Shown: positions 2,200 through 55,190 of the stretch, piece by piece
How positions within the stretch are numbered: the first letter of the stretch is position 1
Layout: each line of letters starts with the position of its first letter
Assembly (NCBI GenBank): GCA_948567375.1
Contig: OX419758.1
Span: 62,897,965 to 62,961,964 of the forward strand
Source: Lunularia cruciata
Lineage: Eukaryota; Streptophyta; Marchantiopsida; Lunulariales; Lunulariaceae
Direction of reading: 5' to 3'
DNA length: 64,000 nucleotides
Program-made: the position numbers and the translations under genes
The notes under the pieces: model-generated
What the model was told of the DNA's origin: nothing
The model's database searches: none
What the model saw: the letters and a program-made list of their open reading frames with translations, nothing else

Positions 2200-5100
2200 T
2201 AGATGTACTAATAGTATATTTGGTAAGACTGGATCATTCCCTTGAAGATATAGGTCAAAAATCACTGAAAACCAGATAAAAGTATCACTATGATGACTGT
2301 CTATTATTTTTTGTTTAACCTTTGGGCAAAGTCAATTCCAAGAAGAGTGTAATGTCACCAACCTTGGAACACTACAAAAATGTATCTAACAAACAATGAG
2401 GCTCATTTAGATTGAGTCCAAAAGACTCTTGAAGGTAATGATTCATTTAGAATAAAGGTCACTTTACCATGAAATTTTTGCACCTTCCCGTTTTGCCCGA
2501 TCAAATTCTAATAAGCTATCATTGAAGTATTCCCCAAAACTATGATCTATATTTACATCAAAGGGTTTTGTTTGTATGAGATTGTTAGTGCTATGGTGCC
2601 TTACAAATAGGGTCCACGAACACATGAATTGAGGGGGAAATCAAATCTTCCTTGGGTCCAATTACCTTGACAACTAAGATAGTGACATAGTATTCACCTT
2701 TCATGGAAGGTACCACATCACATGAGTTGAAGTGATCACAATACTCAATCTCATATGGTGGTGTTATTTTATGATACTCCAAGTGTTTGGTCACCTCTCT
2801 TTGTATAGTACCTAGGGTTGCACTCCATTTCCACATGAATGATCTCTCTCACTCAAATGCTTCTACTCATGCATCAAGATTCCTTACTTCCACTCAAATA
2901 AGCATGTAGCTTCTCTTACAAAGTTCAGACTAATACACATACACCATTTTGAGAATCTTGATAGTGTAAAATTTGTTTTAAACCAAAAGAACTATACACC
3001 AAATGGACATGGTGGTCATCAAGCTTAAGCCACTTATACATTTCCTACTTAGCCACAAAGCAATCCAATGGTTACAAAGAGCTAGCAATCTCCTAGTTAC
3101 ATCCAAAACACTTACTGCTAATAACATCCTATCCACTAACCCTAAACCTAATCCATAAGCATGGGTGGGCCATGCTTATGCCACCTTAGTGCATTATTGT
3201 CTACCATTAGTTTATCCACTTCTAGACTAATACAAGGCCTTTGTATTGTGTCCTAGCTATTATGTACAAAGTATACATAGGAACAAAAGTTCTTGGTTTA
3301 TGCTTACAAAAGCTAATATATCCTACCCATGAGATAACACTTAGTCATTTTTGACAAAGCTACCCGCTGTTTGTTTTGTATGAGGTTGTTGGTGAGGTTA
3401 TGCTTTCTGAGTATGAATGGATGTTACTGGTGACAAACTGCTTGCTCCTTTACACATGTGGATTAAATTTGTGAGTTTCTTACGATATGCTTGAACTATT
3501 CATTGAAGCTAGCATGGATGGTGGTAACTTGCAAAATTTTGTGACCTTGGTGGTGGATGCTCCTTACAATTCGATTGATGTTGCAATGAGTTGGTCATTT
3601 TATACACTTTTTGTTCCAACATGTTAATCTGCATGTGAAGATCCTTCATCCTTTGTATGTTAGTGGTTCTTATTAGTCATTTATTCCAATTGGTCTAATA
3701 ATTGTGTCATTGCCTGCCTGATCATTACAAGCAACCTTGTTTGTTAATTTTCTAGGCTATTTCATTTGTTGAAGAGCTTTTTTTGCTCCTCTACCTCCTT
3801 CTTGCCATTTAAAATTTTTCATCAAGTCCAAGATAAGAAGGTTAAATATAGTCTTGAGATTCTTGTATCTTGTTTCTATTGTTGCCATTTTAGAACAAGC
3901 CTCTTCAAGTTTGGTTTGTAGGCTCTTGAATTTGTCAGTTCATGCACATAGCTTGTCCTTACACTTCTCTTGTTGGTGGAAAACCTTAAGATTGTGTTTG
4001 TCACCTTTGGCCTTCAGTTGTGCAAGTATAGTTTTGTAGTGTTGGTATTGTTGTTGCTCATCCTTCTAAAACTTCTCCAACTCCTTATCCTTCTTTGCCC
4101 TCTAGGCCTTAGCTTTGTTCTTCATTGCAGAGGAATGGCTTCTCTTGGGCCATTGATTGTGCCGTTTTATAGAGGTGTCAAACCAACATCATTGGTTTGT
4201 TAATTATTGCATTGGGTTCTTTGTGCAACAAAAAGAACTCCTCCGAGGCCTCCATCTTAAGCGTTACAATATTTACCATATATACCATTGTTAACCACAT
4301 GATGGACTTTCCTTCATTTTGTACTTGTTTTTAGCAAGGTTTTGGTCACAATTGTTCTTTGTTATTTGCCTAAGCTAGTGCTACTTGTGTCAATTTTCCC
4401 TCTATGCTAGCCAAACTTGTATCATTTGCCTCTTTCACCTCCATCTCCACCAGTTGTTGTTCACTTTGCAGCTTCCACCTATATGGAGACTAATTTGTTT
4501 CTGTAAAATGATTCTTGATTCTTGGTTTGGGCAGCATTTTGGGTTTGTTGCTTTGGGCACTTCTTGTCGTGTGTTGTTCTCCTTGACTAACTCCTTCACT
4601 TCCTCATTCCAAATCCCTAGAATGAGATTGATGATGGCTAAGCTTTGTGTCGGAATTTGCCTCAACTTGGTTACAAGAGTTCCCTCATCTCCCACCTTTG
4701 GCCCTTTCTCCTCTAATGAGAATAACTCTACACTCTTATTAACTATAGGTGGTGACAACTAGGCTTCATCTTTGCTTGCCTCCACCTATACCTCCTCATT
4801 GTCTATCTCCATCCTACTTGTCTATGGGATGGATTTCTCAAATTCACCTCTTTTTTTCCCCAGAATTCTAGAGTGCATACCGGCTTCCAGTATTGCTAGA
4901 AAATACATCTATCATTGGCACCAATTGTTGGTGCTTCTTGGAAGCCTAAATCTTTGGCTTGGCCCCAATCTCCTTCTTGTGTTTTAGGATTGGGTTGTAG
5001 GTCTCTATAATAGGTAAAAATTCCATGGTACAAGCAGACTCCTTGTTTGCCTTGTGGTACTCTATAATTTCCTTGGGCAGATCAAGATGCCCGCCGAAAT

Positions 5101-5900
5101 ACACAAGGTGGTAGAAGTTGCTGAGGTATTTCTTCTTCTTTTGATTAAGAGGTTCATCCTAATCTAGAAGTGAAAAATGAAGGGGGCCACACTTGCAGGT
5201 GTACCCTCACCCATGTTGTCCAACAGGTCATTGACCCACTCCAAACCATCCTTGCCCAACTCACAAGTGGTTGTTTGTGCAAGTGCTAAAAGAAGATTGC
5301 ATTGTTGAGGTTCATGTAGGCTAGACTCTTCAATCTAAACAACTTCATGATGGTTTTGGTGATGACCCATCAAACCGGGTCCAAAACATCTTCTATTTTA
5401 TATCTGTTTGCCAAATTTCCTCCTACAAACAAGTTATCAATCCTGTTCTTCTTCAAGTCTTGGCTCGGATGACCATGGGGTGTTTCAATGTGGATTTTCC
5501 AAATGGTGAGCAATCTTCTCCCAACACTTGCTTCCAATGATCCTCCATCTATATGGTCAGACATTGGTGTAGTTGCAACTCTTTTCTAATAAGGAGATGT
5601 CCAAAAGACTCCAATCCCATAGCAAGAATTCAAGCTTTTGACTCTTGAGGTAATCCGGTAATACAAACCCCATTGTAAAACCTCAAAGAGGTTTGCTCAC
5701 TATCTCTACAAAAAGAACTTCTGTTTTCAGTCCTTAGCATTTTTTTGTGCCATTGCTAAAATATTCAGACTTGCAAAGCTAACCTATAACCTACACCCTC
5801 TTAGATTGTCTCTTGAACTTGTTCCGCACTTTGTTGGTGAAAAGGCAAGTCATGTCAATAATAGTGATGTTCTCATGCAATGCAACAAAACCTCAACCAT
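2200..5900 (-). mobile_element. Unclassified repeat family, copy A (fossil)
   Basis: Read on the minus strand, this segment is colinear with the plus-strand copy B1. Matching blocks, in order from about 5640 downwards, are: a motif like YLKSQKLEFLLWDWSLLDIS, a block around TIWKIHIETPHGHPS, a block around NDLLDNMGEG, a block like HLVYFGGHLDLPKEIIEYH, a long Lys/Glu/Gln-rich coiled-coil stretch near 4300-3700, a non-coding block near 3200-2950 and a second coding-like block that includes FMWKWSATLGTIQREVTK near 2836. The frames are much broken, so it is a fossil. I do not recognise the protein family and cannot place it in a transposon superfamily. Outer ends are approximate. Homology to B1 is clear from short shared blocks; function is unknown. 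Confidence 0.6.
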
Positions 5901-6420
5901 GAAGAAAGTAAATTAAAATTTCTCCTTGTGGTATGGACCTACATTTTATAGTCTTATAGAACTAGTCCATCCTTCATCCCTTGTGGCACTTGATGAGCGG
6001 TCAACGGTCATGCATTAAACACATGTTGCTTGCTACCAAATGGTCTGAATTACTTCCTCTAGCTGCACGTTCATCCATGAAGCATGAATTTTGTTGTTGG
6101 CATTGAATTTGACAGCTCTTCTAAACTTCATAATGACATGACCTCGTGTCAACATATCTTTGTAGAATTACAATTCTTAACAAAGGAGCTTTGTAGTGAG
6201 ATTGTTGTAAGAATAATAGGCTGTCAAGGAAACCTTGTTACAATATGAACCCAAAAACCTTATCCTTTGGATCTGGGTCATATTTTTTATATGATGGAAT
6301 GGTTCACTTTGTGAGGCTTTTGTCTAACTAATAAAAAAATAATTTGTTAATATATTTTTTCATGCTATTTGCTAGGATTTCTAAAATTAACTAAAACAAT
6401 AAGTTTGGCTACATAGCACA
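5900..6420. other. Junction between copy A and the Ty3/gypsy fossil; nothing seen
   Basis: No coding signal is supported here. The stretch separates a minus-strand fossil from a plus-strand one, so at least one insertion boundary should lie within it, but I see no clear terminal repeat. Confidence 0.4.
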
Positions 6421-7805
6421 CTAGAGTTAATGGGAGCAAGTAAGAACATTTTTATCAATGTATCTAGATGTTTAAAAAGATTAGACAAAGCTAATGCTTC
6501 ATAGAAGGTGCATCAATTGATTAACAAACATGAAGAAGATATCAGAATTACCATTTCCTATCATTTTATCAAAGTTGAGATTCTTTCTAGGAATGGTAGA
6601 ATATTATTGGAGATTTATCCCCTCTTTCTAACATAAAGCTCATGTTTTGACCTTTTATATAAGAAAGGAATATATCAAGCTCTTGTCTTTGTAGTTAAGG
6701 CAACTTGGATGGCTTATGAAGAGTTGAAGAAGGTTCTTAATACTAACCCAATTTTAGCTCAGCTTGATTGCCTAGGAAAATTTTCATCCTTATAAATGCA
6801 ACTAACATGGTAATTAGGTGGACCCTTATCCAAAATGATGATGAAGTGCATGATCATACTTGTAGTGCTAGTAAATAAATGGCTCTTGTAAAAGTAAACT
6901 ACTTTCTCATGAAGAAAGAAGATTTAGAAATTATCTTTGCATTGAGGAAGTTTAAGCACTACTTGGTGGAAGGCAAGTTCAACATTATTATTGATCACAA
7001 GGCTTTGTTGTGTGTAGACCATACAACTTGCATAGCTCAAATATCTTACGTGCAGTAGGGCAGATTTCTCATAAAGACTCTATTGGAACTTACCTCCATT
7101 TTACCTTTTTTGTCTCTCCCTTGTACGGCTTGATGGGGTCTTCCTATCCTTTGTTTTTTCTAAGCAGTCGTCTCCTTCCCAATATTGATAGAGTATCATC
7201 ATACCATGAAAGCTTCAACAATATATTTTCCTTGAGAATGGCTTATGGATTGGAGTCCAAACTACCAATCTGCTTTGATATTCAAAAGTTTTAGATTCTC
7301 CAAGTTGGCTTAAGGAAAGAAAACAGAAGACTCAAAGAATTCATACCAAAAAAATTTCATGGAGTTGGAGGAAGCTAAAGCTATTGGTTTAGTTTGCATT
7401 CAAAAAGCTTGTGCTTAATCAAAGAGGAGTTATGACAAGTAACTCAAAAGGAGAACATTACCATATTTAAAGAAGATTGGATGATGCCATTTGATTCTAT
7501 TGCTACAAGAAAGCAAAGAAGAGGTTCTAACTTTGGTACTTTGGTCCTTGTATCATATCATAGAGAAATCCTATAGTAATCATACTTACTTTAAATGGAA
7601 AATGCCATTTGATTCTATTGGTACAAGAGAGCAAAGAAAAGGTTCTAACTTTGGTACTTTGTGCCTTGTATCATATCATAGAGAAATCCTATAGTAATCA
7701 TACTTATGATATTAAGGACATTGAAGGTAGATATGTTGATAGACTCAACTATGCTAGGTTGAAGGAAGTGATACTTCAATTTGAGAATAGAGTGAAAACT
7801 TAGTC
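6420..7805 (+). mobile_element. Ty3/gypsy retrotransposon pol fossil
   Basis: Parts appear in the order expected for Ty3/gypsy pol. The end of reverse transcriptase lies near 6570-6620 (motif FLGMVEYYWRFIP). An RNase H-like block lies near 6720-7010, with LKKVL early and HYLVEGKFNIIIDHKALL late. The integrase C-terminal part lies near 7200-7800, with AYGLESKLPICFDI, a block of the MELEEAK type, and a GNY/LNYARLK-like ending that matches the usual VNGxRLK tail. Gag, protease, the first part of reverse transcriptase and clear long terminal repeats were not found. The frame is interrupted many times (more than ten), so this is an old, inactive remnant. Confidence 0.75.
7484..7700 (+). repeat. 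Direct duplication of about 114 bases inside the Ty3/gypsy fossil
   Basis: Two nearly identical units, starting near 7484 and 7598, both carry the stretch from the ATGCCATTTGATTCTATT-like start to the TCATACTTA-like end. The high similarity of the two units compared with the decay of the surrounding fossil suggests that the duplication is younger than the element. Confidence 0.9.
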
Positions 7806-7942
7806 AGATTGTAAATATAACACTCTAGGATGCACATTAGTAACTATATAGAGTGAAAATAGATACATAGAGTGAAATATATACAGTGAAAACTTAGTCA
7901 GATTGTAAATGTAACACTCTAGGATGCACATTAGTAACTATA
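7793..7942 (+). repeat. Direct repeat of about 60 bases, two copies
   Basis: The sequence around AACTTAGTCAGATTGTAAAT recurs about 83 bases later with the same following block (to about 7853 and 7940). Short GAGTGAAA-containing units lie between the two copies. It marks the tail of the Ty3/gypsy fossil. Confidence 0.85.
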
Positions 7943-7949
7943 AATATTT

Positions 7950-10620
7950 TGGTGGTTTTGAGATAGTTAGATAACTAATTCTAGTTATGATTACCTTAGT
8001 ATTTCTTGATAAGGAGAAGGATAAAAGATTTCTTTTTGGACCCTTAGTGAATTTTAAATAAGATTATATTAGATTGGGACCTCTTTAGAGAACTTTATAT
8101 TAGAGTATGATCCTTAATGGAATTTTATATTAGAATACATTGGTTGGAGTGAGACTTCAATCTTAGACATTGCATGGTCAAATTGACTTAGCATATAGGA
8201 GGTGTCAAACTTCCATTGGCTAACCAAATTAAGTGACCTTTAGTAGTGGAGGTACAATATATGCTCGCTTAAGTCTGCATTATGATCTGGAAAGTTTGAT
8301 GCAGACTTAACTAAGATATGGGCTTAAAGAATATTGGGGACCTCTCATATAGTAAATGTATATATGTGGAAAAATCAATTTTTAAATTTACCAAACTTGC
8401 CATGGTGCCTAGAGTAGAATGTCTCCGCCTTTTGGTGAAAAAGGGGCTCATAGTTTACCAAGGCATGTTCAATATCAGAGTAGGCCAAGGCTTGGTAGAC
8501 AACCATTGGATAGAGTCCTAATACCTTGTACGACTTGTGGATATATTTGGCATAAAACTTATCAATAGCTCACATGTCACTGTTTGGAAAGGGTGCTTCC
8601 TCGGGTTCATTTATGGTATACTCGTTATTGAGGGTCCAGTCTCTCTTTATCTTATCTGTGATAGAATTATATTGTACATTAATTCAGAAAGATGTAACAA
8701 TGTGTGGTCAAGGTGCTAGTTAATTGCAGGGTCATGTCATTTTCTCGATAGTCAGTGGGGCCGTGGAAACCAAATACAACAGGTCAAATTCAGGAAAGGT
8801 GTAGTTACATAATTTCACAATCTGTTGATAAACAGATTGAAAAATAAATTTTGCAAGATATTGATCTTGGAAAATTTATCTATGGAATTGTGGACTTAAG
8901 CAAGATGCGGACTTAAGCAAGAGTATATTGTAGGTCAATTTAAGTAGATTTGACTTGAATGTTATAATTTTTAAATAGAAGAAGGTCCAAGATGGACCTT
9001 GATGGATTATGCTTAGAAGCTCCCAAAGAGACATATTTCCTATGTGATTGCACATTGACCAAACATTTCTTGATGTTATTTATGAAAAGTGGAGATTTTA
9101 TAAAGTTACCAAGGCACTTATTATAGTAATTTTAGTGGGTAAATAAGGAGGAGTTTAGGAAGTGAAATGAATGGATTCCTAAGTTAGCTTAGAGTTTGTA
9201 TTAGGTAAGGTGAATGAAGCTTTGAGACTACTATCTATATTTGCTAAGTAAAGAGTGAAATTTTCTACTTGAGAGAACTTTGATTATTATGTTGATCTTG
9301 GAAGAACTCAAACTCTTGAGGACCTTTTTGTGAGTATGAGAGAAGTGTCTTTTGTCTTGACATTTTTAAATGTAGTTGTGTTGATCTTGAAGGAACCTCT
9401 AACTTTCGAGGACACTTTTATGAGTATGAGGGAAGGGAATTTTTTGTTGAGATTTTTAAAGTCCTCTCTTAGAGGCTATTTTGGCATAAGATAGAGATTT
9501 CAGTCATTTGAGGGAAGAATGAGAGAGTTAAGAAGTAATGGGTGTTCTCTTATTGATTTTCTTTTATCCTTGATGGTACCTAATTCCAAAGTGTTCTTCC
9601 TTTGAGCACACTATACATATAAGAATAGTCCCTATAGGTATCTATTGGGTGAGAGACAAGCTTGGCACAATTTTTATTTGTAGGTCATATGAGTCTTCTT
9701 CAACTTTTTTGTTTGTAGCATCTCTCTTCTAGCAATTATTGGTACAAGTACTTGATCTTTAAGATGTGCAACATCTGAAGCTTAAATTTTTGGTATGTAT
9801 TACAATCCATTATTAAGATATAAGTCTTGATCTTGCTAAGCACAACATAAAAGACACAAGAGTAAAACTCCAAGGAAGGATGAAAGGCGGTAAACTTGGT
9901 AGCACTTTTGTCACAATATTTATAGCACCAAAGCTAGTTTGCTTTATGCTAGAGTGGTGATGTTTGTAATCATAGGTATTGTGGTCATGGTCTACTTGTT
10001 GAAGGTTCATGTTAGGGATACTTATCACATGGTAGGACCCACAATTACTTGCACCATTCCCACCATTGGATGTGCCATTAGCAGTGCCATTAGGGCTGGA
10101 GATCTAGGTCAAGCATTGGGGTATACCTTTGAAGTGCAACTCCACAAAGCTCACTTCTTTGATGTTGAGCCTTTGCGTTCTTGGCTATGGTAGACAAAGA
10201 GTGGTAAGCGTCACTAGGAGTCTTTGAGCTAGAGTGGGTGTGGTTTGACTATAATCAATGCCTGATTGTTGGTAGATTGTTAAGTGAAGGATCGAGGACA
10301 GATCTGATTTGAGTGTGATTGGAATAGAAGGATGAACTGATGGTTGTGGCACTTTAGAGTTCATGTATAACTTATTTGTGAGTTGTGCTTCTATATTGTA
10401 TGATGACAACTATGTATGTTGTGTAGCAATGTATATATGCATGACACTTTTGACTTATTTATGGTGGTATGTTAAATATATACACACACTTACTTATTGG
10501 GATCTAAACCATCAAAGTACTCCCAACAATGCTAATTACTTGCCTAGATCTACCACCACAATGACATGTTATGTGTTCCCGTTAGCTCTCCCTGTCATGT
10601 AAATTAGCAAGTCCAAAAAA
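7950..10620. other. Intergenic repeat-derived DNA, no gene seen
   Basis: No open frame here shows protein-like content. Two related stretches at about 9292-9370 and 9380-9465 share a GTTGATCTTG...GAGGAC...TATGAG pattern, which indicates another local duplication. The stretch may be the downstream flank of the Ty3/gypsy element, but no terminal repeat pair was established. Confidence 0.5.
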
Positions 10621-11200
10621 TCCTTTGTACTTGACCAAGTCTAGAATTTTAGCTAATTCTATTTCATTGGTCTAATGATATGCATCTTGCTCATTTGAAC
10701 ATCAATGTGTTTGTCTTTGCCAAGCAATTTTTTTTATTACAGCATAGATTCTTAGATTTATTGAGATTTGAGAGCTCTCCTTGTCTAGCTCCTTGAAGGT
10801 TTTTGAAGCTTATGTAAGGTCTATGGAGCTTGTGTGATCCTTATTAAATTGAAAAAAATACTGACCTTTGCACTCACGCCATCACCCAAAATTTACAACC
10901 TCTTCCTTTAAAGATGTCCAAATAAGCACAATAGTCTTTGCTTAGTTGAGAGCCTTCATTAACTTCTTGCTTCCATCTTTATATGCTTATCTTCTTGCCC
11001 TTGTATTTAGTTGATAGCCCAACTTCCTCGTCCTTAAGCCTCTTCTTGCATCTCTAGATGGCATTGGCTCCTACTTCCTCCTTGTTTGCTTATTTCTTAA
11101 AATAGGCCATGTACCTTTTGTATACTTTCAACCTCTAAGCCTCCAACCACTTCAGATGAAGCAGATTAAGATACTCAAAGTCAAGTAGTGGAAGCTAGTA
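10620..11200 (-). mobile_element. Possible small fragment of the unclassified repeat family
   Basis: On the minus strand this stretch reads as a broken Lys/Glu-rich coiled-coil sequence, with pieces such as VYKRYMAYFKK and CKKRLKDEEVGLSTKYK. Its composition and phrasing resemble the coiled-coil portions of copies A, B1 and B2. Similarity of low-complexity coiled coils is weak evidence, so this may be coincidental. Confidence 0.3.
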
Positions 11201-12380
11201 CCCATGCAACTTTGGTTAAAATCTTTGAAACTAATACTAGCTTTGCACTCTAAGAAAAAATGCTTGGGATACAAGTCCAAGAAGATATTAAGAGAGGTTA
11301 TAACTTAAAAATTACAAGGGTTTTAATTAAATTAAAGCGTACATTGGATTTTGTACACAAAACTAATAAATATTTGCACAAATATGCATGCAAGGACACA
11401 CACCAACTAAAAAGATACTAGAAAATATATGCACCCAAAATAAGTCCAGATGTTATTATACGGATAAAGGTATGCACATTTACGTGCAAATTTATGCTTG
11501 TAAAATGCAAAAGTCCAAGAAATCTTGGCTTTAAGCTTGCTTTATGACTTTGAGGAAAAAATTTGGTATATTTACTTTTGAAACTCTAAAAGATTTACAC
11601 AAACATAGCACAATTTCACTAGATATTGTGAAATTGAAATTTATGCCAATAAATAGTAGAATTCCTTACAAAAATTGGTTTTTATGTGCAAAGATTATAT
11701 TAATATGCAATAAAATACAATATGCTTCCCTTCATGCAATTGTACTATTCCCTTTTGCTATTGGTTTGGCTTCTTATCTTGTAGATTTAGTTATTCTTAA
11801 CACCTTAAGGGGATTTTCAGATTGAATGTTTGTATCTAAATGGTTGTTTTCCTCGTGTGCTTTATATTTATATATTTGTCTTGCAAAGAATGCAGATCAT
11901 ATACTGCGTATGCACAAGAGAAATTAAATGGATGACTAAGCATAAACTAAAATACGATGTGAACAGGCAAAAATATCTTAGCATAGTTATAGAATCAAGC
12001 AAAAACTACCTTCCCTAATCACATCTAATAGAAACATTTTTACGTGAAGTGCATATAGTGGGCATATTGATCATCAACCCTACTTTACAAGCAAACTAAC
12101 TTTTCATAAAAGAGAATATCAAAAGCAATACAACTCTCACCATTGCCATGACCAAATAGTTTTTAAGGTAAATTGATTTAATGTTGTATGTACAACTCGA
12201 GAACACTAGATAAAAAAACACAGAAATCTAAGGAAGAGGAAATAAAAGTAACTTTTTCTTATGGATGTAGCCGGAAGGACTGAAAACAATGAGATAAAGC
12301 CTCTCTTTGTAAATCTCCTATTATAATCCGGTGATTTAGATGGAAATGATAAATTACATCATATATAAAATATGTGTATG
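11200..12380. other. AT-rich intergenic DNA, no gene seen
   Basis: The stretch has short open frames without recognisable domains and an AT-rich composition. Nothing can be supported. Confidence 0.5.
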
Positions 12381-12381
12381 A

Positions 12382-13085
12382 TCATATGATTTTGCCGTCA
12401 TACTTCCCTTCGTAGATTTGCGGATGACAGGTCCGACACACCGGAATTCTTTCCCGGTTGAATTGGACCATTAGTTTTCCGAATCGAAGGTGCTTCATAT
12501 GGTGCACTTGCATGTTTTCCTGGCTCCCGCATACATGTGCACAAGGGCTCTCAATCCAGATGTGACCATTTGTACTCCAGCGTTCTGGAACATTATGGCA
12601 CGAAAAAAAGCTCGTTAGTGAAACCCGTGCAGAAAACACTGTCAGATTGATAGTACACTAGACTGATTGATATCACTAACACAAGAATTTGAACCAACAG
12701 ACACAATTCCATCTGGTAAAGTGAGTAGATTCTGGACGAATTTACCTTTTGATGGAGCAGGTGTGGAGACAGGAGTGGTCAATGGAGCAAGCCTAAGAGC
12801 CTTAAATGGAGATGGAACAGGTGCAGAAATAGGAGTGGTGACTGGGCTCGACCAGTGACAGGAGCAACCACTGGGGTTGCGCTTCACATGGTGCATGTCG
12901 ATGTTTCCTTGGTTCCCGCATATACAGCAAGAGCTAGTTAGCCCCAGATCGTACTCCCCGGGCGGAATGTTTAGCGTGTTAGCTCAGGCCCTGATCATCA
13001 CATACTTGTCACGATTGTTGGAGCTTGAAGAAAACAATCGAGCCACACTACCTTTGCAGTAATTTAAGCAGTAAGCCGAGCTTAA
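12382..13085 (-). pseudogene. HNH endonuclease remnant of group II intron-encoded type, duplicated
   Basis: On the minus strand, 12639-12382 encodes an HNH-like pattern: CAHVCGSQENMQVHHMKH followed by NRERIPVCRTCHPQIYEGKY and DG. The order C-x-x-(x)-C-G-x-x-x-x-[IVM]-x-x-H-H, then N-R-x-x-I-P-V-C-x-x-C-H, then G-x-Y-D-G, is typical of the HNH endonuclease domain at the C-terminus of group II intron-encoded maturases. A second, upstream copy of its first half (CCICGNQGNIDMHHVKR) lies at about 12950-12880, preceded by a short stretch that could be maturase-like. The two halves are about 410 bases apart and separated by a Pro/Ser/Thr-rich stretch with an internal 63-base repeat. No reverse transcriptase or full maturase domain is present and the frame is interrupted, so I call it a remnant. 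It could derive from transferred organelle DNA, from a decayed paralogue of a nuclear maturase, or from another HNH family. Confidence 0.55.
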
Positions 13086-22150: not shown

Positions 22151-22222
22151 TAACAGATGTTCCAAAATGCTAAAAGTCATTATAACGTAAAATAGAAATT
22201 ACTATTTCATACCATACCAAGG

Positions 22223-22225
<3 letters not shown>

Positions 22226-22275
<50 letters not shown>
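22226..22275. repeat. (AT)n microsatellite inside copy 1
   Basis: Fifty bases of alternating AT that are absent from the equivalent place in copy 2, so the run expanded after the copies separated. Confidence 0.95.
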
Positions 22276-22278
<3 letters not shown>

Positions 22279-38911: not shown

Positions 38912-39515
38912 TATTTGATGAGATGAATTTCAATACCCCTAGAGTGGTCTTTAAATTCATTCGTTTCAATTTCATTCAATTTTATTTAAACCATAAGCCC
39001 TAAAACTCTTGCCAAGCGTTCAAACTTTATCTACAATAATCCCTCTTGAGACTACGATGCTACAATACTAATTTGAACAAGAATCAAACTCAAGCCCATG
39101 GGAAAATCAGAACACACTTGCAGTTTGATTGTTAGAGAGCTTAACCACACTTAACTCGTACAGATATTCAAATGGTATCATGGTTTCATCTTGATCGTGA
39201 GCATTGATGCAACACTTTGTAAACCGGCAAAGCTAAATATCATGATTTGCTTGAAGTCGCAGAAACCAAAACTTTTTTCAAATTACTGATAGATCCATCT
39301 CCTACTTAAAAGTAACAAAGTAACTGCAAGGGAATGGTCCACTTCAGGAATTGGCAAATGCAGGACTCGAGGACTTCGCAATTATCAGCCTACATCTCTC
39401 AACTTTACATCTATGCCTTTTCTATCCACGCTTGAAGGTGTTTCTAAACACACACCTTGTATTCAATTCACATGATGTACAGAGAACCTAATATTTATAC
39501 AAGACAGTCAATTTT
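38912..39515. other. 3' flank of the PTST-like gene
   Basis: No coding content. The stretch lies between the copia fossil and the stop codon of the minus-strand gene and probably includes that gene's 3' untranslated region. Confidence 0.5.
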
Positions 39516-43108: not shown

Positions 43109-43640
43109 TTCCACTGTGATTCCTGCCCCCCAAGATCCGATCTCCAAAAATCACAGTATTTCCTGCAGAGTCCCAACCCCAGCACCCACCGGGCAGCAGC
43201 AGAAGACGTCAGATTTTAATTTACACCTGTTTCACCATTTCTATCAGATGTCGCCTGTCAAGAACAAGCAGAAGGAGCATCCTCACGGCCACACTCTCGC
43301 TTCCAAGTCCCATCACTCAAACTCCCTTTCAATGAAAAGAAGCAGTCAGACGACAAATATCATCAGATTATTTCAATTGTCGCCTCCCATAGCCTTTGTT
43401 GCTGCCAAAACCAACGTGAAACATGAGGAGATCACACCTGACCATGGTTGGCCTAACCGCGGTCCGGTCAGTTTCACGAAGAACCGTTATTGTTGCTACG
43501 CGGCTACACTCCCTTATCTGCGGCTTTCTGGGTTACTACCTATCTACTGCTACGTGGATGGCCCGCCTTTGACTTCACTTAAGAAACAAGGCTTGAGGTG
43601 GTTCTAATTTTGTCCTATTTGTTGCAGCTATCAGATTATT
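43109..43640. other. Upstream region of the PTST-like gene
   Basis: GC-balanced DNA that should hold the promoter and leader. A 163-codon plus-strand frame here (43116-43607) has no recognisable domain and looks like a chance frame. Confidence 0.45.
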
Positions 43641-46388
43641 AGGATCTAAAATTACTTTTTTATTTATTTTATTTTATTTTATGAATAATTATGATAACAC
43701 TTTACCCTAGCTTTATTATATATGGATATAAATTTTTTAACAATAAAATAAATTAATAAGTTTAAAAAATAAATTCAATGAATATTTTCTGGTAATGGTT
43801 TATGTAGAGTTTAGTTTGGTAACATCATTTATATAAACACTAAAAAAATACTGCAATGATATATCTAGTAAGCACTAAATTATTATTGATCAATAAATAT
43901 TCCATTTTTTATGTTACTTATCAATACTACTTCTTGCACACTTCTCTAGAATAAATTCTTTTATCCCACTCTTAAGAGAACTACAATAGAATAAGTAGGA
44001 TTGAATATCAAAATTTTTAAGTGATAGGAACCTCTCATACTTTGATCGTATTCCCCACTTAAAAAAATTTCTATATATTTTATATTTTGTGGTTTAGATA
44101 ATCTATAAATTTATAATATAATTTTAATCTTATAAATATATTTACAATATTTTATTGAAATATAAAAATATTATCAATAAATTCATATAAATTTACATAC
44201 TATAAAATTATATCAATCACCTAAAAGTATTCAAATTTACTCCAAACATAATAGATTTGAATAGATCTTGCCCCATACGAGAAGCCGAGATATCCCGTCA
44301 TCTTATAGAGATCTCCAAGAAATCTATCCTACTATACTTAGGATATGAAGACCTATATAAAACATCATATTGGTTATTTATTGGAACATCCAAATAAATA
44401 TCACAATAGTTATCTCAAGTAAGCTAGAATTTTAAAAAGTGATATTTTATTGCCTAGTATGGTTAGTTACCTAAGATAAGGTTTTATATAAAAAGAAGTT
44501 GTAGCGATACCTTATTTCCTAATATTCTTCTTGCTCCATATAATAAAGCCCCTTGTTGCTTTGTTACGTACCATTACTCCACTCGCCATTTATCTTGATG
44601 ATGGATAATCACTCATTTCAAAATTGCAACTTGTATGAGATCTAAAAATAATGTAACGTATTTCTATAACTAAATTGCGGAATTCTCCAAATATATCTTT
44701 ACTATATTTGGAGATTTTACTTCTTTTTTCTATATAAGAGATATCTCCAAGAATACTTAGGTCAGATCTATTCTAAACTAAAATATGTACATTTTAGAAC
44801 AAAATTTACCATTTAATAATAAAAGAGTAGTAATCTATTGGTTATAAATATATAATAAGACCTGTTGGCCTAAAAACTGCATACGTTCAAGTCTACCAAA
44901 GTAGCCATTTGTTCGAGCACTAAGGACGTCTATGCTCATATGTATAGTCGTTTCGGGCTAATGCACGGTAAGGTAAAATTTGAGTGGGTATCTTTGGAGA
45001 AAATCGTGACAAATACTGATACAAATAAAATAATAAGACTCTCATTCTTCACTTATTTCTCTAACCGTTATATTTAACAGACTTACTCTTTCTTTTTAGA
45101 AATATGAATTATTAATCCAAATACCAATATTTTCTTAACGCATCAATTTTCAGCGTTTTTAAATGTTTTATATTGGATTGAGGCTGGTTCATAATTGTAA
45201 CTTTCAAAATAGTAGAAATGTATTCCGTATAATATAGAGTCTATGCACTACTAGTTATGAAAGTGTAAATTTTCATGAGTTGTTTCTCGTAATGTGTACA
45301 CTACTACCTCAAATACAAATTTCCACAAACCTTAGCGTGCTAAGACTTTGATTTGTTAGTAGTGATTTATTTCTCTAGAGACTACAAATGTTAGTTTTAG
45401 ATTCTAACAAGCATAAATTATTATGAACAAGTGATTAAAAAGTTAATCAATAATAATTTCTAAATTAATAGTTATAAATTATTAAAATTTGCTAATAAAA
45501 TTCTCATATTTTCACTTTTATATGCGTTTATGTTTAATTTTTACAAATTGGATCTCAACACCGTTATAGACAAGGAGCTCTTATTTATGTCTTGACTCTC
45601 TCCGAGACTCTATTTCTTTTTCCTTTTTTTACCCTCAGAAGCTAGTCAGCAATACTACAATACTTACTTACAGCTGGCTAGGATGATCGCTCTTTCTTAT
45701 TATGAGGTGTATTTATAACTAGTATACACGTGTTTTGATAACCATTCTATAACCTTCTAGTTTGGATATCGCAATCCATTTACGACTATATATAATTAAT
45801 TATGAATCAAATCTAGGTACTTTAAATCTTTTGCGGATTTGGATTTGGGAAGCACAAACCTAATCTATGGTAACTCTTTGATGATTTCAATCTCTTCTGC
45901 TAGCATTCCTTGTTTGCAAGTGTTTTGTAGTTTATTTGTAAATTCTCTCTATATGAAAGTCTAAAGTATACTTGCTTTTTTTTTGTCGTTTCTCTTTTGT
46001 CCAAAAGTTCTCTTTTTTTGTGAAAGTTGAAAGTAAAATACATATGGCTATATTCTTTACCTTTATGGCTTTGGACTCCACAACAATATAATACTTTTTC
46101 TGATACTTTTTTTGTGCCCAAAAATAGATAGGCAAAGATAGAGTCCAAATTATATATTGAGCTTGATGTTTTGTAAAGACTGTCTTTTACTTGACAGATC
46201 AAAAGTTTGGAGATGGACTTTACATCCGCAATGAAACTTTAGATTAGATTAGTGTATAACTTCTATTTGTCTAAATAACAATTATAGATATGGTTTCCAG
46301 TTCCAATAATACCCATCAACTTGATCCATGTCCTCTCTTTATTGATTACATAACCTTAATTAGAACAAACTCCACATACGTGAAATTG
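43641..46388. other. AT-rich DNA, no gene seen
   Basis: Strongly AT-rich, with TTTTA-type runs near 43660-43685. No supported gene or clear repeat structure. Confidence 0.55.
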
Positions 46389-46638
46389 TAAACCCACCTT
46401 ACCTTTTCTACTCATCCACCTCATCCCTCTCATGCTAATACTTCCAGCCAATTAGAGCGACTAATTGTGTAAAATTTGTCGCTCTTGCATGCTAGGACCA
46501 TAGGATACTTTTTACATCATGTTCCAACATTGTAGCCAAGTTCATAACATAGTGAGAGTGGTTTGATTGGTTTATTTGCATCTTGAATAGTATTGTAGGG
46601 AGTAAGGTGAATGAGCAAAAAAAAGTGAGGTGGGTTTA
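46389..46638. mobile_element. MITE-like element, 250 bases
   Basis: The ends TAAACCCACC (46389-46398) and GGTGGGTTTA (46629-46638) are exact inverses, and the inverted similarity continues inward for about 40 bases at roughly 75 percent. The interior carries a second inverted pair, AGAGCGAC at 46454-46461 and GTCGCTCT at 46478-46485. No coding capacity. The TA at the very ends would fit a TA or TAA/TTA target site, but the superfamily is undecided. Confidence 0.7.
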
Positions 46639-46879
46639 TTGTTTCACTTGATTTATTTCTATTTCCAGACTTTTTTCAATTATAGATAGTGAGTTTGGGT
46701 CCAAAATGAAACTTTGTGTAAATTCATACATAATTTTTAATGGCTATAAAGTATTCATCAATTCTAAAAATATACATCTACTCATATGATTGATTTAACT
46801 TCAAGTTATCACATAATGGTAGTAACCTTATTTTCACTAAAAACTTTGTTTTGATTAGTTTTACACCTTTTTTATTAAG

Positions 46880-49800
46880 TTTATACCAAGTTATAAATAT
46901 ATCAAAGATAGAATGTGGTTTGGTACCGCTCACACTTGGAATGGAAGGCAATTACATGGGTAAGAAGAATGAGCATAAAGGAGGAAGTGCACAAGTGAGA
47001 GATGAACCCAAAGGAGATGAGATGGAAGCTGATTCGTGCCAAAAGGACGGAAGTTTGAAGATCTTCTCTACCTACAACCTTTGGGATAAAGACTATCATC
47101 CCAGACCTTTGGCCTTAAATAAAGAACAATTTTTTGAATGTGCAACCACCAAGAAATGTAACTACCATAGGGATTTATTTGCCAGCCATCAAAACCTTTG
47201 CATGTGCGGATTGAGATTGCTCCACCGCAATTCAATCAATAAATGCAAGTAACAAACAAACCAAGGCTATAGGTTGAAGTGTGCAATATTTCAATTTACT
47301 CATAGGACAAAGAGTTAGTTCAAGGACAAAGATAGTTCATCTCACCTTTGTTGTCAAGACTTAGGGACATTCATAATAGAAATTCCTTTTGGATTTCATA
47401 TGGAGAAGAGAGAACTAATATGATGAGAGGGGTTGAAATAGTGCACGTACCAAGGCATTGAAAGTGCATAGATGAGATGATTCTTAGATCACCAAGAGTA
47501 TATATCATTGGAAGTAAACATGAAGAACATTGACTATAGAGTCAATGTACTTCATAGCAAGAAGTTGACATTCTTGTTGTGGAATTGAAATTTGAGCCAT
47601 CCCAAACTGATTTATGAAATTAGAGACAATAAGGATCATGGTATAAGGAATTTGAGAGTTAGCCTATTTGCTTGGACCAAGGATCATTGGACCACTATCC
47701 TCTATCCTTGGCCTAAGGAATTCTACATGAAAGGCGATAACCTTAAAGACCCAATGGCACCGTCCAAACAAGAATTTGGAGAAGTTGTTGATGGCTTTCT
47801 TCAACAAGACCAAAAATGGATGGAGCATGGCCAATTACAAGGACCCCATGTGCAGGGCAATAGTCAAAGCCATCATGGAGTTATTCAAGTTAAAGAGTAC
47901 TACTAGCCTCAACAACAACTAGATAATCTTCTTCCATTTTATGTATGATGGGCAGTTAGTAAACTACATCTATATGTTCTATAGGCTAGCTAGGACCATG
48001 TGTGGAGATATGAAAAAGGATGGAGGGAACATATCTATCTCCATTCATTATATACTTTTACATGGGATTGAATCTCCTTATCAAGGAAGAGAGGAAGAAA
48101 TTCCTTAATTACTTCCACCCAAAGGCTATTTTGCATCATAGCCAAAGGTGAAGGTGATGTGCTCAAATTACACCTTGCCAAATGCCAAATACATAAAAGT
48201 AAGCTTCCTCTACTTTGTAAGAGTAGAAGAAGCTCCAAACACTATTGGTTATGTTAAAAAACCAAAAAAGAGTAGCACTTGCAAGGCTAAAGGTGAAGTC
48301 CAAGAAGAGTCTTTGGAGGAGGAAGCCATAGATCAAATGGGAGTGAGAAGTGTAGAACTTCCTCATGTTGGTGGGATTGTCTTTACAGGAAGAGGAAGAT
48401 GATGAACAAGTTGAAGACACCCAATCTGCCCCATTAGGAGAAGAGTAGATGGCAAATAAGGAGAGATTGTAAGAGGAGGAGAAATTCAAGAAGATCTCTA
48501 TCATGAACTTCTTGTTCATGCCAAAGGTATATGTCACGATTCACTTTTTCTTTATGTCCCAATTTTCCTCATTTTTGTAGGTTTGTAGTGTTATAAAAAA
48601 TATATAAAGCCCTAAGGTAGTCATAAGTAGGAAAAAGTGACTAGTTTGGGTCAAGTACTTTATGAAGTTAGGATGTCAAAACCCGGTGTGATGAACCTCT
48701 TAGCAAATACAGTTTAAAAAATGACTATAGGAATTCTTATACCTATAACCAGAAGGTATTGGCATTGCAATGTAATCTCCATTTTACTAAATGACCATCC
48801 CAACAAGGCTTATGATATAAGTTGGCTCACGATAATATTAGTGGTTTCTTGGAGCTCCTCCATACAAGTAATAGGACAACAAAAATCAGCCAAAATGAAG
48901 TTTTGGCAGTTTTTGCCACCATTTCAAAACAAAATCATGGCTTTCAATGTGCTGCCAAAGACCCATTTACAAACATTTCAAGAAAAAGATTCAAATGTAC
49001 GGTGTTTGACCATGACCTTCACCAATTCTTGCAATCATTGAGGAATGAATGATGGATTGGATCTATAAATGTGCAACCCCACCCCAAAAGAAGTTACTTT
49101 TCACTTTGCAATTTTCTATTCTTCTCATGCAAGAAACTGCTCAAACATCCATCCAAGGTTTGCTATAAATTCAAGTGTAGATTTGGGAGAGTTCAAGAGG
49201 GGTGGGATTCAAGAGTTCAAGAGGGGTGGGGATATGGTCACAAATACCCTTTGTCAATTGAATAATAGTAGACATGGAAATGGTAGTCAAGATAGAATTC
49301 AAGCAACAAAAGCAAGATGAGATTGTTTGAAAACCACCCAAACTATCCAAGTGGGAATTGCATTGTATGGTTGAGTACTTAAAGAGGAGAAATCTAGACT
49401 TCTTGCTATGGGATTGAAGCTTGAAGGATGTATCACTACTATAAGAAATTAAGAGCAACACTTATACAGTTGGCAAGACATTGAGAGCCGAATCCAATCA
49501 TGTAGATAGAAGACCAGTGGCAATGAGTCTTAGGAGAGAAGTGTGCACCATTTGGGCATATTTACATCAATACTCCTCATGGTAGACCAAGTGAGAACCT
49601 TAAGGCTAAGATAGATGATTTTTTTAGAAGGAAGTCCACAAATGATATAAGTTACAATACCTCCACTTGTTAGATGAGGTCTCCATTTACAAGTTGTAAT
49701 AGAATTAGTGATGAAACTATTTTGAGAAAAATGAACCTCATACATAAATCTTAACCAAGCCATTTTCTTCCAATTCCTACACATAAGGAACCATGTGAGT

Positions 49801-52800
49801 AGCGGATGGATGTTCCATGAATTCATAAAAGAGCTCTTGGAGGACATAGTTGAAGGAATGGCCATGATTGTAACCCCTTCATCATTGATTAACTTCTTGA
49901 TAAAAGAAGAGAAGGAGAAATCTCAATCCACTTTCACTATCTAGCTTACTTTAATGGAGATCCACATCTTGCAAAGGAAAACACTAAATATCATGAGGCA
50001 TACAAGGAGTATGGTTGAACCAAGAAGTTAGTACCCATTGAAGAATCATACAACATGATTATAAGATGTTAGAAGGTGTCTACTACAAAAACTAAAACTC
50101 ATGTTTCAAAGAAGCAAAAATAAACTCAAATTATCAATTTTTTATCAAGAGGAAGTAGAAGTGGTGGGGAGACTAGAAGATAGGTGGAAATGAAGCCTCC
50201 ATGATTAACAAAGGACATTTTGGTTCCAACAAAGGAAAGGAACCTCTTGAAACAAGGACAAGCCCGTCAATGATGACTTGTTTATGTAGATTTTGTCACT
50301 AGACGCCACCAACAAAGCCACTAGGGAAATGATGAATGATAAAGCGCAATCATCATCACCACCCAAAGAAGCACCTGAGGACAAGGTAAGGTAACGATGG
50401 GAGAAGATGAAGATGCCTTTATTGCAAGTCTAAGGAAAATACACATGAACTCAACAATCTTCTTAAATGAACCTCCCAGGCTTAAGAACCTAGAGTAGAC
50501 CTTGTTGATGTCATTTTTGGTGCATGAACCAACAAAGCAAGATTTTCCAAACAAAGCCCAATAACAACCAAGGAAATTACTTAGAAGATGCTTGAAGTAG
50601 GATACCAAAATTTAAAGAAGAATATTCCTCAATGTGCTAACTATTGTAGGAAGGAGACAAACTCACAATTGTAGCCAACAAAATGATGTCAAAACATATC
50701 AAGATGGATAGTACTCCTAATTATACACCTCAAGCTCAATTTCCTATACAAGAGGACTAGACAATGGTAACAAACAAGATAGTTGATACTCTTTTGTCAT
50801 TTGAAGTACAACGATAATTTGTTGGTGTAGTTAATGTTGGTGTATTTTGTACATGCAATTACTATGGTGATGTTGGAAATGTTGGAGAATATCTTGCCAT
50901 ACTACAAAGATCTGGATTCCTTAACTGAAAAGCCATTAATGCTTGTAAATTACCTACATGACAAGTCAAGTGTAATCATGAAGGACCAAGTAGTGCTTTC
51001 TACCAAATTGAACAAGGTCAAAGAATGACTTACAAAGGAGATCACATTGTCACAATAGAAGGTAGATTGCTAGAGAAGTTCCAAATGGAAGAACTAGCAT
51101 GACAAGAACAACACAAGGTCATCTTATGATACCTTAAAAATAGAGGTTGATCTAGTACAAGACAAGGTCATTAAGCAATGAGACCAACATGAAGAAAAAA
51201 TTAGGGCAAGAGACAAAGAGATGATGATTGGCATGACAGAATTAGAGGACACCAACATTAAGGCAACTATGCTAGAGGTTTAGTACAGGAACTTGAAAGA
51301 GCCCACCAACCTTTTTATTTAAGAACTCACAATAAACCTAAAATGATCACAAGATAAGGAACAGGAAATCAAAACATAGTTACAAGAAGACTTAATGAAC
51401 AAGCATACTAGGCTTCTCACAATTGTAGAGCATATAGTCATACAACTTGTGGAACAATTGGAATAACTAGCCAACAAAACAAAAAACTAAACAAAGATCA
51501 AGGACTTCATAATGTAGATCAAGGCTCTTGAGAAGAAGTTCTATACAAATGACCAACTAATAGCACTATCTTTGATTGCAAAGTCATACAAACTCCAAGT
51601 TCAAGGAGGCACAAATGAGCTTCACCATTGAGGTCACTGTTACAATAAGGAGCTTGTAGAGCTCATTCAAATTTCTAAAGGCATAGGTAGTCTGTCATAG
51701 GTGCTGCCAATTGTTGTGCAACCAAGTAATAATCCTAACGGTGTTGTAGAAACAAAGTTACAGCAAACTTTGTAACAAGCAATTTATCTCATAGTTGTTT
51801 ACATCTTGTAGTTTCTTCACATTCCATATTTTTTTTAGATCTTGTACTCATAGCCAAGACACTTTGTATCTGTAAATAATTCATAAACCTTAGTGTAAAT
51901 ATAAAATCCAAGTGGACACCTATATGACAAATGAAGATATGACAAATCCACTAAGGTGGTAACTCCATATCAGATGTGCCTACTTGGAGATGAGATTAGG
52001 ATAAGATTAAGATAAAATTAATGAGGATAAATGTAATTAGGTGATCTCCATCACTCTATAGCTATTGGATCTCTTTGGCGGCTAAGTAGGAAATGCATAC
52101 AAAACTTACACTTGATGTTCACTATGTTTATTTGGTGCATCTTTCCATTTCAATAAATGAGCTTATACCATTAAGATTTTCAAGTTATTGTATATTTATT
52201 TGTCTTTTCTCTATATGAATATTTTCATACTTAGTCAATTAGTCACAAGGAATCTTGGCATAGAGGTATAAGAATTGGAGTAAAGGAATCATTCATGTGG
52301 AATTAGAAGGTGGACCTCTAGGTGCTCTACATATGTTAGCTTATTTTGGTTTCAAATCCTTATACTGGTGGAATGATATAGTAATGGACTCTTACAGGCT
52401 GAGGTATCATTAAATACCATGCGCTATGAGACTAAGCAATATGCACCAGTCTAATCTCTTGTAAAGTAGTGCCTTCAAGGAAAGTTGGACCTATATGTTA
52501 TAGTTGTAGATAATAGAGAGATAAAACCCTTGGGTGATCTAGTTCCAATTAGTTTGTATGTTCCATCCTACTACTTGTGAGATATTATGATAACTATCTA
52601 TCTTGTATGACCCACAGTTTGTAATGGTGGAACAAAGGGTAGATCATAAAACTATCATGACAATTGTAGGGAAGAATTTGGTTGGAATAATTGAAGATAA
52701 TAAAATTCTAAGGCAAAGTGACCTTTGTTCCAAATGATCCATCACCTTTAGTAGTCCTCTAGATTATATCCTTATTGAAGTAATTTGTGGTTGTTTATAT

Positions 52801-52900
52801 TTCCATAGTATGCCAATAAGGGTGATAATACATTCTTTTGGAAATTATTTCACCCAAGTGGTTAAATAAAAATTAATAGATTGTCTTTTTGATATACTTG
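46880..52900 (+). mobile_element. Unclassified repeat family, copy B1 (fossil)
   Basis: The longest copy of the family that is also present at 2200-5900 (minus strand). Coding-like blocks in order are: a Lys-rich start near 46956 (MGKKNEHKGGSAQVRDEPKG); a block near 47590-47800 with AWTKDHWTTILYPWPKEFYM; a block near 48822-49050 with KDPFTNISRKRFKCTVFDHD; a block near 49360-49600 with EYLKRRNLDFLLWD; a block near 49800-50030 with FIKELLEDIVEGM and AYFNGDPHLAKENTKYHEAY; and Lys/Glu-rich coiled-coil stretches near 51000-51780. A non-coding block at 51920-52230 with an AATAAA follows, then a second coding-like block from about 52260. Many interruptions; inactive. I do not recognise the proteins. 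No reverse transcriptase, integrase or transposase motif was found in it. Confidence 0.6.
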
Positions 52901-52949
52901 TACCTTGTTTTTTAGTCATACCAACTTGAATCCTAGGATCAACCAGTTC

Positions 52950-55190
52950 TTCTTGCAATATTAAAAAAATTTAACAACACCATGTCATTACAATATGCAC
53001 AACTAAGAAGCAAGGCTTTCAAGTACCAAGTAGAGGTCAAAAGAGTAGGTAAAGATGAGGGACTAGCACTCAAGGCCAACAAATGCCACTCAACCAAAGT
53101 AGAACAAGGACAAAGGCAAGTAATCAAGGCCAAAAGTAAGGTATGTGAAGCCAAAGATCTAGCATCCAAAGGCAACCAACAAGTAGATATCATGGAAGAA
53201 GAAGGAGGACCTTTGGTAGAGACAAGGAAGATCAAGGAAGAAGAACTTACCCAAAGATAAGCTATCCAAACATAGGATAGGACATTTGATACGTTAGGTG
53301 GATCCACCTATCCTATCAGATCATTAATTTGGTGGTGCCAATGATAACATTGCTAGAGTAACTTCTAATTGAGTACAAAGGGCACTACAAGAAGGTAATT
53401 GCTTACACTTCCTTGGTAAGGTATGTGCATGATACCTCCTACCAAGCCAAGGCACAAAAGGAGAAGGTGGCAGCAAAAGTCACCAAGATGCATGAGTAAT
53501 ACAAGGAAGAAGGTCGTAAAGTGAACCACATGATGCAAGAGAACTTCAAGGAGAAGAGACAAAATACCTCAATTGAAGCTATGTAGAGTAGGATCAAAGG
53601 AGAAATCATAAGATCCTTTACTTCAAGTAGAACAAGAAGCAATAGGAGTTTGAGGAGCAACTATGGCTCAAGATGAGGAGGTGGCCAACATCCAAAGCAC
53701 ATTGGATGCAAAAAATGTAAATATGGTAGAATAAAAATTGAAGTGAATAATTATCACACCAATGCATCCCTTCAATCCAAGAATTTTCAAGAGGAGCTAA
53801 AGAAGAGGGAGGAAAATTTGACAAAGTAGGAGGAAGAGAAGGAGGCCAATCAAGGCTAGATGAAGGAGGAGTTGATAGTGGAGATACAAGCAATTTACAT
53901 CAACCAAAAAAATAAAAGGCAAAGATCCTCCAATAAATGGAGGACATAAGGAATTGATTGATGGGTATCAAAAAGAAGGTGATTCAAGTTAAGCTGCATG
54001 AGATAAAGATCCACAAATTAAGTTGTAGCTTCAAACTCCAAAAGCAAAGGTCCACTCAAATAAATAACTTGATTAGTTAATGATTTGACTAAGAGAGCAT
54101 ATCAACATGATGTTTGAGAAATCAACAAACACCCTTCTCTTCCAGTTTGTAGATTATAAGTGGAAGGCAACATGTTGATTAGAATTTTGTGAGATGAATG
54201 TAATTCTTTGTGATAGAACAGTCAAATATCTTCATAATTGAAGACCTTTGGGTTGTAAGATGAGGTAGTCAAAGGTAAGATAAGGATAAATATACTGAGC
54301 ATAGGTGTTCTTTGGATTAAAGGATCTGTTGGTGTGGAAACCACCTTTGGCATGGAAGATCTTTAGGTGAAACTCCTTTGTAGTGGTTGGAAACCTTTAG
54401 GGTCATAAGTACAAAGGAGAGTAAAATTTGTCAATTGTAAACATGGAAGATCTCACAACTTCCTTGATATACTAGATGTACTTAATTAGGCTGCATTATG
54501 GATAAGATGAGGTAAATAAATAAGATAAGCAATGTACCTTTTAGACTATAAACCCAAAATTTTATGGAGATTCTAACCATTAGATCTCTTTGAGGTGGAG
54601 TTAAGAAAAATTCTTAAGGCTTAAAACCAATGTAAATTATGTTTAATTTTTAATCAAGGAAATTCGCAAAGGGACTTTCAAAACTCTCTTCCACTTTTTA
54701 TCTACACATTGAGTATGGATTGACTAATTTTGTTGAGTAATGAGGAGGAACCTCAAAGTAGGAACATATGCGCTTCAGTTTAGAGAGACATTTGAACTTG
54801 TTTGGGATGTTGGATCCTTGTGTTTCCAAAGAAGGTACGTAATGTATGGAAGAGTTTTAAGTAACCTAGAGTATTGAGACAAAATCAAAATAAAAAAGCA
54901 AGTTATTTGAATTGATGCCAAGAATCCTTAAGGGTTATGACTTTTGGGAATAATATGGCCTTTAAGGTAGACGCTTTTTGTGCAAAAGGAGAAATCACCT
55001 TCAGGAGTAATTTGGAAAATATTTTATCACTTTCACTTGAGTGAAAGTGATATTTTTTTTCCCTTTTTTGTAATACCTCTTTTGGAAATTTTTTTGCCCA
55101 AAAGGTTAAATAGGAAATGATAAAAATGAACTACAAGATAGTGATAGTTTTCGTCACTTCTAGCAAGTTCTGACCCAAATCCTTGAATGA
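52950..55190 (+). mobile_element. Unclassified repeat family, partial copy B2 (fossil)
   Basis: A second, shorter unit directly after B1. It repeats the coiled-coil part (52982-53950), a diverged equivalent of the non-coding block (near 54560-54640, with ACCATTAGATCTCTTTGAGG) and the tail block (near 55000-55180). The tail GCCCAA.GGTTAAA..AAATGATA is shared by B2 (near 55096), B1 (near 52850) and copy A (complement, near 2300-2330). Confidence 0.5.
55026..55051. repeat. Perfect hairpin, 12-base arms
   Basis: ATCACTTTCACT, TG, AGTGAAAGTGAT, followed by a T run. It lies in the tail block of B2. Confidence 0.9.

Follow-up and report, generated by a model that had tools for sequence, protein, structure and literature searches.

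Decayed copies of an unclassified repeat family with past protein-coding capacity in a 64-kb window of Lunularia cruciata

Copies of the family in the window

The stretch analysed here, referred to as the window, comprises 64,000 nucleotides of Lunularia cruciata contig OX419758.1 (assembly GCA_948567375.1, positions 62,897,965 to 62,961,964 of the forward strand) and contains decayed copies of a repeat family that is filed as unclassified. An earlier note made from the letters alone had described three copies, A, B1 and B2, sharing a colinear series of coding-like and non-coding blocks. Self-comparison with blastn and nhmmer confirms this colinearity for A (minus strand) and B1 (plus strand), which are homologous over about 4 kb on opposite strands and lie ∼43 kb apart. 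In blastn, A 2268–3843 matches B1 52911–51308 with 58.7% identity over 1673 columns (E = 2e-61), and A 4850–5655 matches B1 50195–49373 with 58.6% identity over 853 columns (E = 1e-34). In nhmmer each copy recovers the other in a single match, at A 6094–2260 with B1 as query (E = 2e-137) and at B1 48928–52916 with A as query (E = 3e-115). Control searches indicate that such matches do not arise from reversed sequence, the best blastn match of A to the reversed B region reaching only E = 0.021 and the reversed window yielding no match to the A+B1 profile even up to E = 1. Searched against the 64-kb window itself, the same profile finds four places, namely A, B1, the end of B2, and a further region 5′ of B1 designated B0, so that the window holds three to four copies of the family. 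A and B1 thus stand as copies, whereas B2 does not stand as a full third copy because clear sharing is found only at its 3′ end. Similarly, of the span 46880–52900 previously assigned to B1 as one copy, B1 proper begins at about 48886 and the remainder holds B0 as a separate N-terminal copy.

Copy A is a near-complete decayed element at 2176–6141 on the minus strand, its limits being drawn from local alignments to B1 at the 5′ end (6141) and to B2 at the 3′ end (2176); the previous limit of 5900 was too short, as homology to B1 extends to about 6141. Its 5′ block (5954–6141) is common with B1 48886–49068 (score 113, 1 of 100 shuffles as good) and contains the sequence TATAAAATG in A and TATAAATG in B1; it has a TATA-like box. 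Protein-level alignments place the remnant of a conserved N-terminal protein domain, interrupted by several frameshifts and stops, at 4934–5657, and the remnant of a C-terminal coiled-coil-like part follows at 3573–4270, where the heptad score of 4017–3742 is equalled by 6 of 500 shuffles. The conserved 3′ non-coding part, defined by alignments to B1 and B2, occupies 2176–3316.

Copy B1, also a near-complete decayed element, extends on the plus strand from 48886 to about 52963 according to blastn, nhmmer and local alignment. It carries the N-terminal domain remnant at 49371–50114 (protein-level alignments), the remnant of the C-terminal part at 50858–51725, which is coiled-coil-like only by virtue of its homology to A (192 of 500 shuffles do as well in its own heptad test), and the conserved 3′ non-coding part at 51835–52919 (score 915, 0 of 100 shuffles as good). 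The core GGCTAAGTAGGAAATG of the non-coding part is exact in A (3039–3054, minus) and in B1 (52080–52095, plus), as had been noted with coordinates differing by one base, and the peptide pairs quoted for the two copies are likewise present in their translations. With up to three mismatches the core occurs at 4 sites in the window against 0.41 expected.

The partial copies flank B1 on the same strand. B0, the N-terminal domain of a further copy, lies 5′ of B1 at about 47547–48120 on the plus strand (nhmmer with the A+B1 model, 47549–48120, E = 8e-13); it is matched by A with E = 2e-16 and by B1 with a mere E = 0.34, and the N-terminal protein domain is the sole part of it that is recognised. 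Just upstream of B0 is a stop-to-stop frame of 152 amino acids (46794–47252), most of which was scanned without a Pfam match and for which the B0 model gave no counterpart in A or B1.

B2 is clearest in its last ∼290 bases, the plus-strand 3′ end block at 54963–55253 that is common to A and B1. At the DNA level this block aligns with A 2466–2176 (0 of 100 shuffles as good) and is found by the A+B1 profile at 54963–55248 (E = 7e-17); the DNA-level match of B1 52632–52963 to B2 54879–55212 is weaker than that of A, with again 0 of 100 shuffles as good. Upstream, a coiled-coil-like part at 53308–53620 (plus; heptad test of 53401–53589, 6 of 500 shuffles) matches B1 from 50837 weakly and as protein (score 62, 1 of 200 shuffles as good). 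The coding part of B2 has no DNA-level match by nhmmer or local alignment. For 52951–54300 nhmmer finds no match elsewhere in the window, other than a short palindrome of its own at E = 0.05, and between 54300 and the end block the best nhmmer match is to B1 51924–52133 at E = 0.1.

Past protein-coding capacity

The ten ungapped protein matches between A and B1 comprise 345 codons, in which 181, 231 and 118 bases are identical at positions 1, 2 and 3, respectively (52, 67 and 34%). Identity at third positions is thus near the 26% expected at saturation, and the choice of these matches at the protein level raises positions 1 and 2 but not position 3. That choice does not enter into mafft alignments, where ungapped blocks of 75 bases or more show uneven identity by phase (p < 0.06) in 6 of 10 coding blocks and in 0 of 4 blocks of the 3′ part. 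The same 345 codons contain 10 stops in A and 13 in B1, one of them common, where random codons would be expected to contain ∼26. Both copies are dead, as they carry these stops and several frameshifts. The proposal that the family once encoded protein is accordingly upheld for A and B1 by their codon positions, although B0 and A lack the low third position, and past protein-level selection between A and B1 is supported.

A, B1 and B0 are alignable over the N-terminal domain, with identities to A of 41% for B1 and 32% for B0 in pieces joined by hand. An AlphaFold model of part of this domain is entirely helical, with a mean pLDDT (predicted local distance difference test) of 43.5 and a pTM (predicted template modelling score) of 0.31; its confidence being poor, it was not used for a fold search. 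The domain is probably alpha-helical. In A and B2 the C-terminal part is charged and resembles a coiled coil (6 of 500 shuffles for each), which is not measurably the case in B1.

The 3′ non-coding part

The 3′ non-coding parts of A and B1 are identical at 307 of 512 positions in the four ungapped blocks that reach 75 bases (61–65% in three blocks and 47% in one) and at 643 of 1061 positions when all aligned columns are counted, the true excess being smaller than the raw gap suggests owing to the aligner background considered below. Compared with the third codon positions (118 of 345), these counts give p values of 1e-13 for the blocks and 1e-17 for the columns. The lowest phase of each coding block has 32–50% identity, and three of the four non-coding blocks have 57–69% in each phase. 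In addition, all three copies A, B1 and B2 possess the 3′ end block, even though B2 cannot be aligned as DNA in its coding part. The better preservation of the 3′ part relative to the third positions speaks for a mobile element carrying cis-acting DNA or RNA rather than for a host gene.

The sense-strand fold of the 3′ end block has z scores of −2.5, −2.5 and −2.7 in the three copies (200 shuffles, of which 4, 3 and 2 are as good). Evaluated along each copy with 40 shuffles, folds reach their lowest z score in this block in all three series (−2.1, −2.0 and −2.5). The surroundings of the GGCTAAGTAGGAAATG core have fold z scores of +1.1 and +0.5, indicating that the signal does not extend to the 3′ part in general. 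The signal is suggestive, and no more than that, of a cis-acting element in the end block. A consensus RNA fold of the block has 42 pairs, 12 of them with changes on both sides, but is not relied on in view of its covariation term.

Order of B0, B1 and B2

The same-strand order of a 5′ half (B0), a whole element (B1) and a 3′ half (B2) suggests that B1 may have jumped into an older copy and parted it into B0 and B2. The end of B0 at 48120 corresponds to about B1 49935–49942 and B2 53308 to B1 50837, so that two anchors ∼900 bases apart in B1 are separated by 5188 bases in the array; the implied insert of ∼4.29 kb is close to the size of B1, which if nested would span about 48630–52960.

The 9-base word AATTAGAGC adjoins the 3′ homology end of B2 (55253–55261) and occurs a second time upstream of B0 (46450–46458), these being its only two occurrences in the window. 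The two places would be suitable as outer ends of the older copy. The two zones searched, however, share four 9-base matches, of which this is one, and that it occurs twice in the window is nothing unusual (22 of 100 shuffles); no inverted repeat was found at the ends that the word implies (132 of 300 shuffles as good). AATTAGAGC is a possible target-site duplication or a chance match, and is taken as a lead only.

Permissive alignments of the partial copies were made and are not counted, since their signs are mixed and the scoring let alignments run on. In these, B0 ends at A 4605 and B2 starts at A 4547, both beating 60 shuffles and fitting the nesting; B0 against B1 scores 1270, below the best shuffle at 1282, and B2 against B1 is above shuffles but starts at 50031, which does not fit.

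Enzymes, domains and element ends

Pfam scans gave no accepted domain in the annotated pieces of the copies, nor in the three sense-strand frames of 1–13000 (minus) and 39001–55300 (plus) with stops read through; two sub-threshold matches (E = 0.062 and 0.078) are taken as chance. The Copia retrotransposon of the same window served as a positive control and returned RVT_2 at E = 2.5e-47 and three more domains. Because A and B1 are more decayed than this control, the missing Pfam match is weaker evidence, and a weak domain could be hidden. Within the reach of Pfam, then, the observation that no reverse transcriptase, integrase or known transposase lies in or beside the blocks holds good. A motif scan of A and B found no zinc knuckle and no reverse transcriptase motif while detecting the zinc knuckle and YVDD motif of the Copia element; its integrase and protease patterns missed the Copia control too and say little. 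Neither the Pfam scans of sense-strand frames nor the motif scan revealed a SWIM, BED or transposase domain, or a reverse transcriptase/endonuclease frame of the kind found in long interspersed nuclear elements (LINEs). Pfam gave no helicase in the sense-strand frames scanned, the element ends not being defined to the base, and two HUH-like words in B (49926 and 55025, against 0.27 expected) are taken as chance.

Terminal direct repeats were sought between the 5′ regions of A, B1 and B0 and the 3′ regions of A, B1 and B2, and none of the nine pairings was clear (best 5 of 100 shuffles, B0 with B1). The nine inverted pairings likewise gave no clear terminal inverted repeat, the best being 2, 4 and 4 of 100 shuffles, uncorrected for the 18 comparisons, and the best inverted-repeat score for A was 81 against a shuffle mean of 91. 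No counterpart of the 5′ block with the TATA-like box was seen at the 3′ end, and the 3′ homology ends bear no clear poly(A) or repeat tail. CACTA-type termini were rejected, as the words TTGTAGTG (5 occurrences in the window) and CACTACAA (2 occurrences) do not lie at matching ends.

Relatives outside the window

A peptide pattern matched 92 stretches in IMG/VR and 291 stretches in GTDB contigs, none of which was confirmed by tblastn as a protein-level relative, and the exact 18-base core as in A occurs 0 times in IMG/VR. For a plant repeat, the lack of a relative in viral and prokaryote collections is as expected. One PDB match (E = 1.2), obtained with a query that contained a wrong stretch, was rejected as chance. 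Rfam gave no match at gathering score and no tRNA genes were found. Searches of an open-access library turned up no published description of such a family, which is no proof that none is in print.

Other features of the window

The Copia retrotransposon lies at 33600–38900 on the plus strand and has RVT_2, SH3_retrovirus, Pol_BBD and Retrotran_gag_2 domains, a repeated 300-base block (33626–33925 and 38247–38546, 92% identical) and an array of 82-base tandem repeats at 38409–38900. Pairs of direct repeats ∼5.2 kb apart, 72–90% alike in pieces, are found at 22155–23733 and 27385–28874, with an open frame of 174 amino acids between them (25655–26179, minus) and an inverted pair nearby (23755–23838 and 29248–29331). 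Long runs of AT dinucleotides occur at 572–650, 1166–1225 and 22215–22275.

Discussion

The reading favoured here, which is regarded as having about an even chance of being correct, is that the copies are fossils of a non-autonomous mobile element of roughly 4.3 kb that coded for one helical and in part coiled-coil-like protein of its own, relied on a borrowed enzyme and moved in trans, probably by way of RNA. To judge from the sequence, such an element would have had three parts: a 5′ block containing a TATA-like box, a single long frame, and ∼1.1 kb of non-coding DNA at the 3′ end. Its protein would have had a probably alpha-helical domain at the N terminus and, after it, a C-terminal part that was charged and coiled-coil-like. 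B1 would have inserted into an older copy, leaving B0 and B2 on either side. Somewhat less securely, the element may have moved as RNA, with a gag- or ORF1-like protein that bound the transcript of the element by way of the conserved 3′ part and with copying done by the reverse transcriptase of another element, acting in trans.

Several results weigh against this reading. No helper element was identified. The aligner alone gives 47–50% identity over all columns of shuffled or reversed sequence, and 40–47% in shuffled blocks, which accounts for part of the excess in the 3′ part. The fold signal is modest, as 6.9% of 320 background windows reach a z score of −2 and 4.7% reach −2.5, and the covariation term of the three-sequence consensus fold is only −0.76. 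In the 58 codons that B0 shares with A, 30, 44 and 29 bases are identical at the three positions; position 3 is not lower than position 1, and this small set supports coding less clearly, though position 2 stands out. The nesting is affected as well: under strict scoring the terminal 470 bases of B0 match neither A nor B1 better than shuffles do, whether as DNA or as protein, the middle of B2 does not match A as protein (score 39, 197 of 200 shuffles as good), and no target-site duplication of B1 is above chance, the longest common word being 8 bases where 167 of 291 random pairs of places share at least 8.

Among known systems, LINEs have no terminal repeats, their ORF1 proteins often contain a coiled coil, and their 3′ end is a conserved cis-acting part. 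The family resembles them in its lack of detected terminal repeats, its coiled-coil-like protein and its conserved 3′ part, but differs in having no detected reverse transcriptase/endonuclease domain and no clear poly(A) or repeat tail.

An unlikely alternative is a long terminal repeat (LTR) retrotransposon of known type, either Gypsy or Copia or a gag-only TR-GAG or LARD, that has lost its enzyme part and at least one LTR, the 3′ non-coding part then being either the 3′ LTR or the spacer that precedes it. A helical N-terminal part with a coiled-coil-like C-terminal part could be a gag protein, and a Copia element is present in the same window. Also in its favour, LTR elements are the major transposable-element component in the moss Niphotrichum japonicum (PMC10619864), and a TR-GAG element with one GAG frame transposes in Arabidopsis (PMC8704663). 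Against it stands the absence of a direct repeat between 5′ and 3′ ends in the nine pairings, of a zinc knuckle or reverse transcriptase motif in A or B, and of any gag or pol domain accepted by Pfam, whether in the copies or upstream of them. TR-GAG (PMC8704663) is similar to the family in having one protein-coding frame and no polymerase or integrase, but it has two LTRs and a recognisable GAG, whereas for the family neither terminal repeats nor a Pfam gag domain were found. LARDs (large retrotransposon derivatives; PMC9033089) are kilobase-sized, enzyme-free and mobilised in trans, the first two being features of the family and the last proposed for it; unlike the family, for which no LTR was found, they lie between two LTRs.

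It is rather improbable that the copies are instead a decayed host gene family, in which B0, B1 and B2 in tandem and A dispersed would be pseudogenes of an ordinary gene of unknown function. A TATA-like 5′ block with a single long frame, several copies adjacent on one strand, and the failure to find an enzyme or terminal repeats would all suit such a gene. The relative preservation of the 3′ part would not, because untranslated tails of old duplicates should be less well kept than third positions and here the reverse is seen; nor would an arrangement in which B0 is a 5′ part only and B2 a 3′ part only with a full copy between them. A third alternative, regarded as very unlikely, is that a DNA transposon (Mutator-like, CACTA or Helitron) moved by a separate transposase carried these copies as its accessory-gene half. 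In its favour, the two AATTAGAGC words at the B2 3′ end and upstream of B0 have the 9-base length of Mutator-like target duplications. Against it, they are not a rare pair, and neither clear inverted repeats (in the nine inverted pairings, at the ends implied by AATTAGAGC, or in A) nor a SWIM, BED or transposase domain were found.

Should the copies turn out to be host pseudogenes or remains of an LTR element, they would have little significance. If the favoured reading of a non-autonomous mobile element is correct, the consequences are of broader interest, as non-autonomous elements usually lose their proteins. A bolder extension of it, considered quite unlikely, is that the family represents an old lineage of plant elements lacking both enzyme and terminal repeats, which retained an RNA- or DNA-binding protein of its own together with a cis-acting region at the 3′ end, and borrowed only the copying enzyme. 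Such a lineage would have persisted until third codon positions neared saturation, with selection keeping both the protein and the 3′ region. A family that retained one protein under selection though it had no enzyme, and whose cis-acting 3′ part outlasted its synonymous sites, would show that holding on to a helper protein can pay by itself. The family would also give a name to some of the unclassified repeats of its host.

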